Shown piece after piece: positions 12,369 through 18,505 of a stretch of DNA of 64,000 bases. The stretch spans positions 39,713 through 103,712 of the forward strand of contig AQUA01000004.1 of assembly GCA_000372185.1 (NCBI GenBank), given 5' to 3'. This stretch comes from an actinobacterium SCGC AAA278-O22 (lineage in GTDB: Bacteria; Actinomycetota; Actinomycetes; Nanopelagicales; Nanopelagicaceae). The notes below the pieces were generated by a model, which did no database searches, was not told the DNA's origin, and worked only from the letters and a program-made list of their open reading frames with translations. The position numbers and the translations under genes were made by a program. Position 1 is the stretch's first letter, and each line of letters begins with the position of its first letter.

Positions 12369-13172
12369 TTATTTAAATGTTGAATTAAATCGAGTAGATA
12401 AATATTTCAGTGCCTTGCCGAATGCAGTAAATTTATGAGTTGAATGGTTTTTCAAAATTGGATAAATTATGGTATGTAAGCTGAGGTAAGTTAATGACAA
12501 CAAAAAACTTCGGTATTTGGCAATTAAGCTCAATCTATTTTTTCTGATATAAATTGTATCCCCAAAAAAAACCTGGATGAAGCGGGGCGTATATTAATTT
12601 GAATTCACTTTTCCTCATGAGGGAATGAACTTTTTTGAAGTTAGATTTCCTCAATTCCGAACTTGCGTGCAGATCAACTTCAATCTGAGCAATCAAGATG
12701 TTCCTTAAAATTTTTTCAGCGCCCCCAAGCACTAAATGCGGAGACCCTTCTACATCCAGCCAGAGCATTCCATTTTTTTGGGCGCCGGGATCTCTATGTC
12801 AAGAGTTGAACAAGCAATCGTATTCTCCGAATAAATATCCGAGAATCTAAAAATCGTATTTCCGGTGCCGAGTTCGCCATAATGATCGTAAATTGAAACA
12901 AACCCTGTTTTGTCTAGGAGGGCAAGGTCGCTGAAGTGAACGATTTCTTGGTGCCCCCTAAGTCTTTGACGCGCTTTAGCCATTGCGGCCCGATCCGGCT
13001 CAAATGCGAATATCTCTTCGACATTAGGCAGCGACGCAAACTTCAATGTGTCCTGCCCATCGTGACAGCCAGCCTCTATAACCCATGAGAACTCAAGATT
13101 TATATTTCTAGCGACATTTAGAACTCCAGGGCTTTCAAAATGTCGGTATAAGCGGTTAAGGAACTTGCCCAT
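12369..13172 (-). pseudogene. FkbM-family SAM-dependent methyltransferase, interrupted by two homopolymer frameshifts
   Basis: ORF 12750..13172 (VIEAGCHDGQDTLKF...FAFEPD) continues in a second frame as ORF 12535..12768 (LWLDVEGSPHLVLGGAEKIL), then in the original phase as GDTIYIRKNRLSLIAKYRSFLL... to a stop at 12369-12371. Shifts lie at T7 (12773-12779) and A8 (12564-12571). The full span of 804 nt is divisible by 3. Confidence 0.75.
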
Positions 13173-13323
13173 GGATTCACCCTGGCATAGAAGTGCAGGA
13201 CAAGCAATGATTTGTCCGTTTTGTCCCCTTCCCGCGACAATCTAGACTGGGATTCGTAGTAGGGGATAGAGGCAGCGACGGCTGGTTCTGTAGGACAACA
13301 CCGGTAAATGAAGGATCAATAAA

Positions 13324-14640
13324 GTGGCACTTAGCGTATGGACAGTTGCTGAACTGGGGGCTTTTTACACTGAGCACCGTTCAGAGCTACTCGCGCATGC
13401 CAACCGCGTATTGAAGGATTCAGCTAAGGCTGAAGAAATCACCCAGGACTCTCTTATTAAGTTCATGCTCGCAGCCCCTGAGCTTGAATCTCAAGAGCAC
13501 GCACTCTCTTATTTGCACCGAACCATTGAAAACCTCTGCATCGATTACTTCCGCATGGAAGGCCGCCGTCCAAACCTTGTGGTTATCGACGATGCTCAGG
13601 CTGAAGTTGAAGCTGCATGGCAGGTAAATGGCGATCACTCAGAAGTTCTTACTCAAGCTGAAGATGCAGCGATTATTCGCCAGGCTTTGGCACTTCTCTC
13701 ACCTGCTGAGCGCGCAGCGCTTGTTATGTGGGAGATGGAAGGCCGTTCAACAGAAGAAATCGCAGCAGAGCTTGGAATCAAGGAATCTGCAGTACGTCAC
13801 ACAGTTTCTCGCGCTCGCACATCCCTTCGCCGCGTACTTTCAGAGCTCGTTATCGATCAAGAGCGTGGCCTTACAGCGCTCGACATGCTTTCAACAACCT
13901 ATAAGAAGGCAGCCGAGCTTGCAGCTAAGTCTTCAAAAGTCGCTCTCTCCTTACTATTAGTAGTTACAGTCTTCCTTGGCTTTAACTCAATGACTGGCCG
14001 AGAAGGCGTACTTCCAACGGTCTCAACCAACGATTCTGCAGGCGCAACAGCTGGATCTGCTTCAACAGATTCACTAGCACCTGCCCCATCTCTATCGATG
14101 CCAGCCAAGAAGTCATCAACCATGGTTTCTGGCGTATATGTCAAGAGCGGAAAGGCCACATGGCCTGGACTTGATAACGAGGGCGTCCCAACAGGATTCA
14201 CCATTGCAGGTGAAAATGGTCCAATCGGAAAGATCCGCGTAAACCGCAATACTCCGATTTCGACTGAAGAAGGCACAATTTTGGCCACCCAGGCCATCAC
14301 ATCTGGGGGTGGACCAAACGTGATGATCGATCAGACCATCACAGTCGATGGCAACGGCACAAAGTATGAGGTCAGTTACGTAGCACTTGGCATGAAGGGC
14401 TCTTGGGCGGTAGCAAACGCTGACGCCACGAGCGTGGATTTTGAGCGTATGTCCAATGGCCAGTACCTTATGACCGTTACAATTTCCCTACTCTCTACCC
14501 CAACTTCAGAGTTCGTAATCCCCGTGGGTGACCGCGGGTACGATCTTGTTGGCGCACCTAAGACGATCACGTCTCGTCTCTTGCTCAACGCGAGCAAGAC
14601 CCAAATTTTAGCTCAGGCGGTATTAATACCCGGAGCATAA
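13324..14640 (+). CDS. ECF-type RNA polymerase sigma factor with C-terminal transmembrane segment and extracytoplasmic domain
   Basis: Region 2-like AEEITQDSLIKFML...ALSYLHRTIENLCIDYFR; region 4-like LSPAERAALVMWEMEGRSTEEIAAELGIKESAVRHTVSRARTSLRRVL; TM VALSLLLVVTVFLGF; then a Ser/Thr/Pro linker and about 190 aa further domain. Confidence 0.85.
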   Translation: MALSVWTVAELGAFYTEHRSELLAHANRVLKDSAKAEEITQDSLIKFMLAAPELESQEHALSYLHRTIENLCIDYFRMEGRRPNLVVIDDAQAEVEAAWQVNGDHSEVLTQAEDAAIIRQALALLSPAERAALVMWEMEGRSTEEIAAELGIKESAVRHTVSRARTSLRRVLSELVIDQERGLTALDMLSTTYKKAAELAAKSSKVALSLLLVVTVFLGFNSMTGREGVLPTVSTNDSAGATAGSASTDSLAPAPSLSMPAKKSSTMVSGVYVKSGKATWPGLDNEGVPTGFTIAGENGPIGKIRVNRNTPISTEEGTILATQAITSGGGPNVMIDQTITVDGNGTKYEVSYVALGMKGSWAVANADATSVDFERMSNGQYLMTVTISLLSTPTSEFVIPVGDRGYDLVGAPKTITSRLLLNASKTQILAQAVLIPGA

Positions 14641-14652
14641 TTAAATAAGTTT

Positions 14653-14763
14653 CCTCATCGCGTCCGGATACACGGTGAGGGATTTGATTCATCAGCACGT
14701 GCGATGAATCGAGAGGAGTTAGGAAACTAATTCCAAGCCGATCTACGGAAATTCCGTAGATCG
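14653..14763 (+). promoter_or_regulatory. Structured 5' leader with three consecutive potential hairpins
   Basis: Stems 14653-14660/14673-14680 (cctcatcg/cggtgagg, one G-U), 14686-14693/14703-14710 (gattcatc/gatgaatc), and 14739-14763 (cgatctacggaa-a-ttccgtagatcg, 12-bp arms), followed by aaagga and the ATG at 14782. Confidence 0.6.
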
Positions 14764-14781
14764 ACTATCGAAAGGAAACAA

Positions 14782-16719
14782 ATGTCTACAAAGACAACAT
14801 TCAAGCGCATCGCGCTTGTAGCTGTTGCAGCTTTGGGTCTTGGCGTTTTGTCTGTTGCACCATCAACAGCGGCGATCACATCGTTGACTGTAACTGGAGC
14901 AAACGGAACCTCAAGCAACTCAACAGATTACACAACAGGATCTGACTCAACAACTGCAGCAACAGTTACTGTAGCTGGTCTAATTGATAATCCATTGACG
15001 GACTCAATTACAGTTACTTTCGTCAAGAAGTCAGCACCATCTGGTGCAGTTGCGGTTCCATTTGCATACTTCGTGGAATCAACTACAACTACTGCTTCAT
15101 CAACTTATGTTGACTCACTCACTGCGGCTACACCTGGTGCAGCTGTTGCAGCGGCTCGTCAGAACGTGATGCTCGGTGCAAAAGTTGGTGAAACTTACAC
15201 CCGTGCAATCGCGGTAGATGGAAGCGCACAATTCCGTATCACTAAGGGTGGCTCAACTGCAGGTTATGTTGGCGCGAAATTTGCTGTCCAACTTGATTCT
15301 GTAACTGCACGTATCGCTGGTACCTATACATATACAGCTATCGTTAAGTCTTGGACTCGCGATGGTGCCGGAAACCAGACATACAGCACAGCTACTCAAG
15401 ATGTAAGTATCGTTGTAGCAGCTGCACTTCAAGACGACACTGTCGTTGTGCCTGCATCATCAACAGCATACTTAAACTTGGGCACTTCATATACAACAGC
15501 GTCAGATTCAACTGTAGCCCTTGTTGCAACAGCGTCATCAACTGATCAGGCCGTTATCTACGTAAGCACTAAGAACGCAAACGGAAACGCGACAGCTGAG
15601 TCAATCACAGTGACCGTTACAGGTCCTGGCGTTGTCGGAACATCAGGTGGCGCTTACGGAAAGAACATCGTTGTAGCCGGCACAGGCACAACCACCATCG
15701 GTATTCGTGCTGATGGAAACGCTGGAACTGCATCAATTTCTGTAAAGACAACTTCACAGACATTTGCGGCAAAGACAGTAACTTTCTATGCTAAAGCAGC
15801 GAAGACAATCACCCTCGCGGTTAACAAGCCAGTCATTGGTGTTGCCGGAGATTCAGATGCAATTCGTGCGACAGCTCTTGACGCAGACGGCAACGTCTGG
15901 GGCGGACAGGCTTACATCTACGCAGCTTCAGCAGCGGATGCACTAATTGCAGGATCAGAAACTCCTGCAAAATGTACATTCAATGCAGCTAAGGGATACC
16001 ACGAATGCTCAGTTACAGGTACCGCAAAGGGAACTGCTAACTTCAAGGTAATCGATGCATCAACAGTTGCGCTTGCAACTGCAACTTCAGCATCTGCTGC
16101 AGTTCGTGTATCGACTTCACTTCCTGCATCAGTCAAGATCTCATTCGACAAGGCAACATATGCTCCAGGTGAGAAGGCGCTCGTTCTCGTGACTGTTCTA
16201 GATTCAGATGGAAATGCTCTTCCATCTTCATCTATCAGCAACGTCTTTGCCTCAGCACCTGTTGTTTCAACAGCATTCAGCGGAACAGCTCCAACATTCC
16301 GCACAGATGTTGTACTTCAGGGAGCAACTTCAGCTTCATCTAACTATGTTGCAGGCTCTGAAGCCTTTGTTGCTTACATGCCACTATTTGCTGGTGATGT
16401 AACAATTACTGCTACTGGTTCAACAGGGCTTGCTCAGGCTGGCCGTGTAGCAGTCTCAGCTACAGCTTCTGTTGTTAATGCTTCAGTTGATGCAGCTACA
16501 GATGCAGCTAACGAGGCTACAGATGCAGCTAACGCAGCTACAGATGCAGCTCTCGCAGCGGCAGATGCAGCAGATGCAGCAACAGCTGCAGCTCAGGATG
16601 CATCAGATGCAGTTGCAGCACTTTCAGCAACTGTTGCTACGTTGGTCGCAAGCCTCAAGGCTCAGATCACATCATTGACTAACCTAGTCATCAAGATCCA
16701 GAAGAAGGTTCGTGCTTAA
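14782..16719 (+). CDS. Secreted surface (S-layer-like) protein with C-terminal coiled coil
   Basis: N-terminal KRIALVAVAALGLGVLSVAPSTAA signal peptide; Ser/Thr/Ala/Val-rich beta-type body; heptad-repeat C-terminus ATDAANEATDAANA...LVASLKAQITSLTNLVIKIQKK. Confidence 0.75.
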   Translation: MSTKTTFKRIALVAVAALGLGVLSVAPSTAAITSLTVTGANGTSSNSTDYTTGSDSTTAATVTVAGLIDNPLTDSITVTFVKKSAPSGAVAVPFAYFVESTTTTASSTYVDSLTAATPGAAVAAARQNVMLGAKVGETYTRAIAVDGSAQFRITKGGSTAGYVGAKFAVQLDSVTARIAGTYTYTAIVKSWTRDGAGNQTYSTATQDVSIVVAAALQDDTVVVPASSTAYLNLGTSYTTASDSTVALVATASSTDQAVIYVSTKNANGNATAESITVTVTGPGVVGTSGGAYGKNIVVAGTGTTTIGIRADGNAGTASISVKTTSQTFAAKTVTFYAKAAKTITLAVNKPVIGVAGDSDAIRATALDADGNVWGGQAYIYAASAADALIAGSETPAKCTFNAAKGYHECSVTGTAKGTANFKVIDASTVALATATSASAAVRVSTSLPASVKISFDKATYAPGEKALVLVTVLDSDGNALPSSSISNVFASAPVVSTAFSGTAPTFRTDVVLQGATSASSNYVAGSEAFVAYMPLFAGDVTITATGSTGLAQAGRVAVSATASVVNASVDAATDAANEATDAANAATDAALAAADAADAATAAAQDASDAVAALSATVATLVASLKAQITSLTNLVIKIQKKVRA

Positions 16720-16748
16720 TTAGCACCCTTTAACTGAAAAGATCAGAA

Positions 16749-16790
16749 CCGAATCCCGGTTCCCCTTCCGGGGAGCCGGGATTCGGCCTT
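16749..16790 (+). terminator. Hairpin terminator after the surface-protein gene
   Basis: ccgaatcccggttcccc-ttcc-ggggagccgggattcgg, about 17-bp stem with one G-U pair; weak T tract (cctttc). Confidence 0.75.
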
Positions 16791-16810
16791 TCAATAGTTA
16801 GGATTAGGGC

Positions 16811-18505
16811 ATGGTAAGAATTGAAGAAGAAAAAAGTATCGCCCAACTAATAGTTTTTGGGATACCCGCTGTATCGCTATTTATATGGAGTTCTGGAGTA
16901 ACAGACCCTGTTAACGCAACCAAACTTTTAGTAGCAGGAGGCGTGGGTTCTGGCCTGCTAGGCATCTTCCTCTTCTTTGATTTGAAGCAGTCTTTTACGA
17001 ATTTCAAAAAATATATTCTAACCATTTCGTTTTTTTCGATAGCGATGATTGTTTCTGTAATTTATAGCGACTCGCCTTTAACTCAGAATATTTACGGAAG
17101 CTATGGAAGAAATACGGGCTTCATCACTTATCTTTTTTTGTGCTTTATCGCATTAGGGGTTCTGAAAATATCTAAAGCGCAAAATTTTAGAAAAATTATT
17201 CTAGCGCTTCAATTCACGGGATTTATAAATATGATTTATTGTGGGTGGGTCCTTCTCTTTGGCGATTTTATCGGTTGGAGTAACCCTTATGGTGACATAC
17301 TCGGCTTCTTCGGTAATCCAAACTTTATTTCATCTTTCTTAGGCATGTTTATCGGAACCCTCTTTGTTTACATGTTTGGTGAAGAATTTTCAGCCAAAAT
17401 TAAATTGATTGCAGGACTGTGTATTGGCTTGTCATTTTTTGAAATTCTCAAATCACATTCGATCCAAGGTATTGTTGTGAGCGCAATTGGTTTTGGGTTA
17501 GTCCTTTATTTTTGGGTCCGCGCCAAGACAGAGTCTAGGCTAGTTGATGTGATTTATTTATCCTTTGGCTTTTTGATATCCTTAATCGCGCTTCTTGGTT
17601 CACTTAAAAAGGGTCCTTTGGACTTTATTTACAAAACTTCCGTCTCATTGAGAGGCGCATATTGGGATGCTGGAATCAAAATGGGTATGGAGCATCCGCT
17701 CACGGGAGTAGGAATGGATTCTTATGGAGACTGGTACCGAAGAACTAGATCGGAAAGCGCTGCTACAGTATTACCAGGGCCCAAGACTATTTCAAATACT
17801 GCCCACAATGTATTCATAGACCTCTTCTCTAACGGAGGTTGGCCTCTTTTAATCCCATATCTAGGAATAGTTTTGATTGTTGCGATTTCTAGTTTAAGAA
17901 TTTTCTTGCGTTCTAGAAAAATGGATCCCATTTTTATAGCTCTACTTACAGGCTGGCTTGGATATCAGATGCAATCAATAATAAGCATTAACCAAATCGG
18001 GTTGGCTGTTTGGGGTTGGCTGTTGGGAGGAGCCATAGTTGCCTATGAATTCCATACTCGCGCCGAATTTAAAATAGAGTCGAAGATTTCGGGTAAGAAC
18101 CATTTTGCAGCAAAGAGGGCAAGTGTCATTTCTCCTGGCCTAGTTGGAGGGATTTTTGTAACTTTAGGGTTGCTTATTGCTTCTCCGCCACTTACAGCGG
18201 ACTCAAAATGGAAATCCGCATTGGATTCTAGGGATGCAAGACGAATTATTGTTGCGTTGCAACCTGGTTACCTAAACCCAAGCGATAGCAATAGGTATGC
18301 TCAGGCAGTTGGGTTGCTTGCCGCAAGTAATCTTAATGATTTGGCCCACCAAGTTGCAATTGAAGCGGTTCAATACAACAAGGATTCCACAGATGCTTGG
18401 GCAAACCTTTATTCGCTTCCTAACGCGACAGTAGAGGAAAAGGCTACAGCATTTAGTAATCTGAAACGACTTGATCCCTTTAATCCAGATGTGACTGCCC
18501 GCTAA
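16811..18505 (+). CDS. O-antigen ligase/polymerase family membrane protein
   Basis: Multiple hydrophobic segments; HPLTGVGMDSYGDWYRR...SNTAHNVFIDLFSNGGWPLLIPYL motif. Confidence 0.8.
   Translation: MVRIEEEKSIAQLIVFGIPAVSLFIWSSGVTDPVNATKLLVAGGVGSGLLGIFLFFDLKQSFTNFKKYILTISFFSIAMIVSVIYSDSPLTQNIYGSYGRNTGFITYLFLCFIALGVLKISKAQNFRKIILALQFTGFINMIYCGWVLLFGDFIGWSNPYGDILGFFGNPNFISSFLGMFIGTLFVYMFGEEFSAKIKLIAGLCIGLSFFEILKSHSIQGIVVSAIGFGLVLYFWVRAKTESRLVDVIYLSFGFLISLIALLGSLKKGPLDFIYKTSVSLRGAYWDAGIKMGMEHPLTGVGMDSYGDWYRRTRSESAATVLPGPKTISNTAHNVFIDLFSNGGWPLLIPYLGIVLIVAISSLRIFLRSRKMDPIFIALLTGWLGYQMQSIISINQIGLAVWGWLLGGAIVAYEFHTRAEFKIESKISGKNHFAAKRASVISPGLVGGIFVTLGLLIASPPLTADSKWKSALDSRDARRIIVALQPGYLNPSDSNRYAQAVGLLAASNLNDLAHQVAIEAVQYNKDSTDAWANLYSLPNATVEEKATAFSNLKRLDPFNPDVTAR

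Follow-up and report, generated by a model that had tools for sequence, protein, structure and literature searches.

Extracytoplasmic function (ECF) sigma factors with a C-terminal transmembrane (TM) extension have already been described in Actinobacteria, where they make up groups ECF48, ECF52 and ECF53 (PMC8999054). Here we analyse a gene of this general plan, together with the structured RNA leader and the surface-protein gene that follow it, in a 64,000-nucleotide stretch of DNA from the Nanopelagicaceae actinobacterium SCGC AAA278-O22 (assembly GCA_000372185.1, contig AQUA01000004.1, positions 39,713 to 103,712 of the forward strand), which we call the window. Like ECF48, ECF52 (SCO4117 of Streptomyces coelicolor) and ECF53, the protein joins an ECF sigma factor to a C-terminal TM extension, and as in ECF52 there is a Pro-rich region and a predicted extracytoplasmic domain; for the known groups, proteolytic activation has been proposed (PMC8999054, PMC5826349). 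The extension of ECF48, ECF52 and ECF53 has one or two TM helices, whereas here there is one only, and the Nanopelagicaceae protein further differs from these groups in lacking a zinc-finger anti-sigma (ZAS) motif, in having an outer domain without a known relative, and in having a fixed surface-protein partner and a structured leader. Because the zinc anti-sigma module is lacking, we did not assign the protein to any of the three groups. The initial annotation of this DNA, made from sequence alone, had stated that fused TM ECF groups were known in other phyla and had suspected that the pairing with a surface protein was undescribed; such extensions are known in Actinobacteria too, so this part of the design is not new, although the ZAS module of the actinobacterial groups is absent from the present protein. 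A sigma factor and a transmembrane regulator also share one polypeptide in IutY of Pseudomonas putida (ECF243), which is freed by Prc and RseP (PMC8999054), but IutY serves iron-uptake cell-surface signalling in a Gram-negative bacterium, and its outer domain and partner differ from those found here.

Results

We propose that the sigma gene and the surface-protein gene make up one operon by which the cell surface is built and adjusted, a reading to which, as a whole mechanism, we give slightly better than an even chance. The window is a piece of contig 4 of an assembly of 1.14 Mb that is 75% complete. Among named organisms it lies nearest to Actinobacteria bacterium IMCC25003 and Candidatus Planktophila, which places it in the freshwater acI group. 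A scan over genome contigs returned 78 loci, nearly all from this same actinobacterial group; the downstream comparison used 58 loci plus the window (59 with sequence reaching the next start codon), and the protein comparison used 60 complete sigma orthologues. Seven of the records (L035, L041, L052, L065, L067, L071, L077) are titled Bifidobacterium breve or Streptomyces griseus, yet their loci are plainly of Nanopelagicaceae type, so the titles look wrong. The gene pair is conserved in relatives, as the initial annotation would require: in all 59 readable loci the same kind of surface-protein gene opens at the next start, usually with MSTKT..KR(I/V)A, and the same gene order recurs in other genera of the family, including the complete genomes G185, G216 and G217. 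In one locus (L151:3241-9828) the whole unit of sigma gene, leader and surface gene is duplicated in tandem.

The genes themselves were correctly described in the initial annotation, but the conserved structured gap between them (14641-14781, 141 bases) had been overlooked. This gap folds far better than shuffled sequence (z -7.15), and the consensus over the 59 loci contains three hairpins, P1, P2 and P4 (Table 1). Standard pairs fill 97.3% of the pair cells, a share that drops to 35-52% once the partner strand is shifted by 1 to 3 columns; 26 of the 30 pairs have changed on both sides, 411 cells carry double changes, and none of 500 shuffles reached the observed values. Compared with Rfam 15, the leader matched no family: the sole match in the window at the gathering threshold was a tRNA, and the best score in the region was 21 bits, which is the chance level. 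The covariance model, run on 150 genomes, located the leader in 33, all of them members of the window's genus, and in none of 60 genomes from other families, while searches at the corresponding loci found it in other genera of the same family as well. Among viral sequences there were 33 pattern matches, none of them confirmed by the RNA model. Judged from its covariation, the leader is a cis-acting structured RNA absent from Rfam.

In 40 of 58 loci the reading frame of the surface gene also extends back through the leader without a stop, and it often begins with an ATG that overlaps the stop codon of the sigma gene. A coding region was considered and rejected, since codon position 3 is not the most variable, which indicates that the main constraint on P1 and P2 is not a peptide. 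Translational coupling would be the simplest reading of the open frame.

The architecture of the sigma protein agrees with what the initial annotation had read in it, namely ECF regions 2 and 4, a hydrophobic helix, a Ser/Thr/Pro linker and a C-terminal domain in a single frame. The matches to Sigma70_r2 (PF04542, residues 14-81, 48 bits against a cut-off of 24) and Sigma70_r4_2 (PF08281, residues 117-168, 52 bits against 25.7), together with the lack of region 3, place it among the ECF sigma factors, and the best matches among solved structures are SigL/SigH-type ECF sigmas of M. tuberculosis, with RpoE-type sigmas as well. Behind the sigma regions come, in order, the LSTTYKKAAELAAKSSK segment, the hydrophobic helix, a low-complexity Ser/Thr/Pro linker and a beta domain that spans about residues 278-438. 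The hydrophobic stretch at residues 206-224 is VALSLLLVVTVFLGFNSMT, with a Kyte-Doolittle maximum of 2.01; all 60 orthologues have one such TM-like helix, and the net charge on its N-side is positive in every one, so the segment behaves as the initial annotation supposed. The juxtamembrane segment, LSTTYKKAAELAxKSSK, ranks among the best-conserved parts of the protein. The sigma domains fall into two types, A and B, which are about 52% identical.

It had also been noted that no separate anti-sigma gene is visible, and this holds: no anti-sigma gene adjoins 13324-14640, and the ZAS motif HxxxCxxC is present in none of the 60 orthologues, which have 0-2 Cys per protein. The other ECF sigma of the window's genome (C1, 208 amino acids; L125:2507-3525) is followed by an open reading frame (ORF) of 131 amino acids with a zinc-anti-sigma-like HxxxCxxC segment, which is probably its anti-sigma factor, as in classical pairs. 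ECF sigmas with a TM helix and a Pro/Ser/Thr-rich extension but with different outer parts also occur in other actinobacterial families (L123:3389-5023, L155:746-2212, L156:857-2071). The genome has one site-2 protease gene (M50).

The outer domain of about 160 residues was modelled alone, because the search with the full-length fold was dominated by sigma structures, and AlphaFold2 gave a confident beta fold with a predicted local distance difference test score (pLDDT) of 90.4 and a predicted template modelling score (pTM) of 0.87. This model had no match in the PDB or among the viral models of BFVD, and the domain matched no Pfam family above the cut-off, so the structure and profile searches that the initial annotation had called for returned a well-defined domain with no relative in these collections. 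The domain occurs in 79 of 296 genomes of the order and in 8 of 17 genera, all of one family, nearly always in frames of sigma size (400-550 amino acids); L076 and G014 have a shorter, different outer domain. A duplication of a surface-protein domain was considered as its origin and rejected by profile comparison (hhalign probability 0.2 on the percent scale). After correction for sigma-domain similarity, the similarity of outer domains correlates with that of the last 60 residues of the surface protein (partial r 0.53, 0 of 999 permutations), and far more weakly with that of the surface-protein body (0.17). Such a pattern would be expected if the outer domain sensed the conserved C-terminal part.

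The initial annotation had the sigma factor acting on a separate promoter at 14782, which we do not favour. A search of 13100-16820 for sigma70-like promoters gave none, where chance alone would yield 3.3, and the final 100 nucleotides of the sigma gene hold no motif conserved across loci; with a terminator-like repeat after the surface gene, this means that the genes are probably co-transcribed. On these signals the sigma and surface genes are probably one operon transcribed from upstream of the sigma gene, where a conserved noncoding block lies. In type A this block has TGTCCGTTTTGTCC and then CGC(G/T)ACA, and is a candidate ECF promoter with a short 5' untranslated region (UTR); in type B it has CAACATTTGG...GTGTCTT, which resembles ECF promoters in which about 17 nucleotides separate an AAC from a GTCT element. 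The type-A core motif occurs once at 0 mismatches in the window's own genome. A structured RNA in the sigma 5' UTR was considered and rejected, as its hairpin co-varies only weakly, with double changes at 2 pairs among 14 sequences. The type of the upstream block equals the type of the sigma domain in all loci that allowed typing, a few type-A loci being assigned by eye outside the pattern used for typing, and the match holds in the domain-swapped loci L054-L056, L103 and L061, in which a sigma domain sits on the 'other' outer domain. This co-segregation suggests autoregulation.

In five relatives (L085, L098, L116, L117 and L146), oppositely oriented surface-protein genes have tyrosine recombinase genes between them, and the recombinases belong to PF00589 in the three tested. 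The inverted copies share 121-186 bp at 83-95% complementarity, covering P3/P4, the Shine-Dalgarno (SD) sequence and the beginning of the signal peptide. P1 and P2 lie outside the shared inverted repeat, at the expression-site copy. Inverted copies with a common 5' crossover region and a site-specific recombinase are thus found together, and this arrangement is the layout of a surface-gene inversion switch, for which these relatives are candidates in several lineages and in one complete genome, G185. The cassettes lie at L085:7697-12754, L098:11351-16697, L116:4335-10717, L146:4324-11265 and L117:5178-17247. The window's genome, at 75% completeness, has one P4, one surface gene and three integrase matches, all on other contigs, and no cassette was found in it; the complete near relatives G039 and G051 carry the start module once.

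The gene behind the leader had been described as encoding a large secreted S-layer-like protein. Its size (645 amino acids) and its signal-peptide-like N-terminus (MSTKTTFKRIALVAVAALGLGVLS, near-constant across loci as judged by eye) bear this out, and its composition is rich in Ala, Thr and Ser, but searches of Pfam and NCBIfam gave no S-layer domain or anchoring motif (SLH or others) above the cut-off. We found no relevant literature on an S-layer in Nanopelagicales or Planktophila. Compared with L034, the sigma domain is 99% identical and the outer domain 93%, and the surface-protein body scores 0.40 of the self score. More generally, the body (window:14782-16500) diverges very fast from those of L034 and L035 despite sigma genes that are 90-96% identical. 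The inverted repeat behind the surface gene is a probable operon terminator. The next gene downstream (window:16811-18505) encodes an O-antigen ligase/Wzy_C domain, and large ORFs stand at the same place in L147, L148 and L149; this suggests that the Wzy_C-domain gene is a conserved neighbour, possibly involved in glycosylation of the surface protein. Just upstream of the locus, on the minus strand (window:12750-13172), is a short methyltransferase-like ORF of 140 amino acids, possibly a truncated remnant.

Table 1. Positions in the window of the genes, protein parts and noncoding elements of the locus
Feature	Position	Strand	Basis or details
Conserved noncoding block upstream of sigma gene, type A	13213..13323	+	Alignment of 34 type-A vs 32 type-B loci
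Parts of the type-A block	TGTCCGTTTTGTCC 13213-13226; CGCGACA 13233-13239; GACG-loop hairpin ~13267-13290; SD-like GAAGGA	+
ECF sigma factor with C-terminal TM helix and predicted extracytoplasmic domain, 438 amino acids	13324..14640	+	GTG start, single open frame
Sigma regions 2 (residues 14-81) and 4 (residues 117-168)	13363..13827	+	Pfam PF04542, PF08281
Predicted single TM helix, residues 206-224, preceded by conserved juxtamembrane segment LSTTYKKAAELAAKSSK	13939..13995	+
Beta domain at the C-terminus (residues 273-438), predicted to be extracellular	14140..14637	+	AlphaFold2 model
Structured leader between the genes (model R1), reaching to the start codon of the surface gene	14644..14784	+	Fold z, covariation, R1 match 148 bits
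Hairpin P1, conserved loop UCCGGAUA	14650..14682	+	11 pairs, 10 changed on both sides; 96.4% of cells paired
Hairpin P2, inner GC(ACGU)GC tetraloop	14684..14711	+	10 pairs, 9 changed on both sides; ACGT loop invariant
Hairpin P4 (AAGCCGATCTACGGAAATTCCGTAGATCGACT), near-perfect DNA palindrome	14735..14766	+	9 pairs, 7 changed on both sides
Shine-Dalgarno sequence GAAAGGA and surface-gene ATG	14770..14784	+	No variation in GAAAGGA or in the TG of the ATG across 59 sequences
Secreted S-layer-like surface protein, 645 amino acids, with a signal peptide, a hypervariable body and a conserved C-terminal segment that is rich in Ala and ends ...LTNLVIKIQKKVRA	14782..16719	+
GC-rich 11-bp inverted repeat followed by T-rich sequence	16749..16786	+	Read directly in sequence

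Discussion

The mechanism that we propose for this operon is as follows. The TM helix of the protein would tether the sigma domain to the cytoplasmic face of the membrane, and the outer beta domain would monitor the wall or surface layer, the most plausible target being the surface protein of the same operon. When the signal changes, the sigma domain would be freed, for which cleavage by the site-2 protease is the most economical route, or it would become active in place. The active sigma factor could then transcribe from the promoter upstream of its own gene, giving a single mRNA for itself and the surface protein, and the leader would set a large excess of surface protein over sigma factor, with the downstream mRNA stabilised or processed and a strong ribosome site presented. 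The tyrosine recombinase of some relatives may use P4, the final hairpin of the leader, or the repeat containing it as a crossover site, and would thereby swap silent surface-protein genes behind a fixed sigma-leader expression site.

Several points weigh against this mechanism. The window's minimum-energy fold pairs a 5' GUUUCC strand with the SD sequence, an alternative that would sequester the ribosome site; this pairing is not supported, as the SD variants in L046, L047 and L095 are uncompensated, whereas P1 co-varies. The sigma gene is missing from several fragmented genomes of the genus. Apparent absences of the locus from drafts may be assembly artefacts, since the draft assemblies L118, L119, L120 and L121 break within or next to the leader or surface gene. 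The upstream block adjoins the sigma domain, and one contiguous DNA exchange could move both without any functional link between them. Similarly, the correlation between the outer domain and the C-terminus of the surface protein may reflect shared ancestry, and the protein is S-layer-like only by character.

One different explanation is that the tethered sigma factor controls an unlinked envelope regulon, with the surface gene a linked neighbour under housekeeping expression and the leader a stabiliser or a metabolite or ion sensor that works independently of the sigma factor. No promoter of the sigma factor's putative type lies between the genes, and internal leaders can act alone, both of which would fit. 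We nevertheless consider this explanation unlikely, because the pairing is kept across genera and, in L151, even through a tandem duplication of the complete unit, the upstream core motif has no exact second copy in its own genome such as a regulon would need, and the leader model gave no match away from such surface genes.

We give a somewhat smaller chance still to the idea that the sigma factor stays unreleased, either working from the membrane or being regulated in the cytoplasm, while the outer domain is a mere anchor in the wall or surface layer. The high conservation of the juxtamembrane segment would suit a sigma factor of this kind, as would the tolerance of a shorter, different outer domain in L076 and G014, but IutY, a fused ECF sigma with biochemical data, is freed by proteolysis (PMC8999054), and a site-2 protease gene is present here. 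It is very improbable that the conserved gap serves first of all for DNA recombination, with palindromes that bind recombinase, and not as an RNA: P4 is indeed a DNA palindrome and is common, in inverted orientation, to silent copies, but the inverted repeats in the five cassette-bearing relatives start after P2 and exclude P1 and P2, these two hairpins hold 19 co-varying pairs with G-U wobble states, and the leader is kept in the window and in complete relatives with one surface gene and no adjoining recombinase.

The two-gene operon may also be part of something wider, an undescribed system of surface homeostasis and variation in Nanopelagicaceae, in which the outer domain of the sigma factor reads the state or type of the operon's surface protein, a new leader RNA family governs expression, and, in several lineages, recombinase-exchanged genes give a phase-variable coat against phages or grazers. 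We put this forward tentatively, as a possibility of distinctly less than even chance. The acI/Nanopelagicaceae are among the most abundant freshwater bacteria and have genomes of about 1.3 Mb. Three sigma-factor genes were found in the window's 75%-complete assembly, and keeping one of merely three for a single surface-protein operon implies strong selection. The locus is an entry point for asking by what means streamlined planktonic bacteria regulate and diversify their surface when pressed by phages and grazers. It contributes a fused sigma that lacks the customary anti-sigma module, an RNA family absent from Rfam and a confidently modelled domain without a solved relative.

Comparison with known systems

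In slpA/slpB of Lactobacillus acidophilus and sapA of Campylobacter fetus, opposed S-layer genes share a common 5' region and signal peptide, and one of them stands behind the active promoter. The candidate cassettes in the relatives differ from these in having a tyrosine recombinase gene between the surface genes and an active copy fixed behind a tethered sigma factor and a leader; they also differ in that many genomes, the window's included, have a single copy. The cggR-gapA operon of Bacillus subtilis has a regulator followed by a highly expressed gene, with a structured, processed intercistronic segment between them that leads to differential expression; the class of regulator differs from that found here, and the order of regulator, structured segment and expressed gene is alike. 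CwpV of Clostridioides difficile is reported to be a phase-variable cell wall protein with a recombinase-operated switch (PMC2784873), and phage resistance has been attributed to it (PMC4737114). The CwpV switch alters the expression of one gene, whereas here whole surface-protein genes would be exchanged. Set beside all these systems, the novelty of the Nanopelagicaceae locus rests on its outer domain, the fixed pairing of sigma and surface genes, the leader RNA and the expression-site arrangement.

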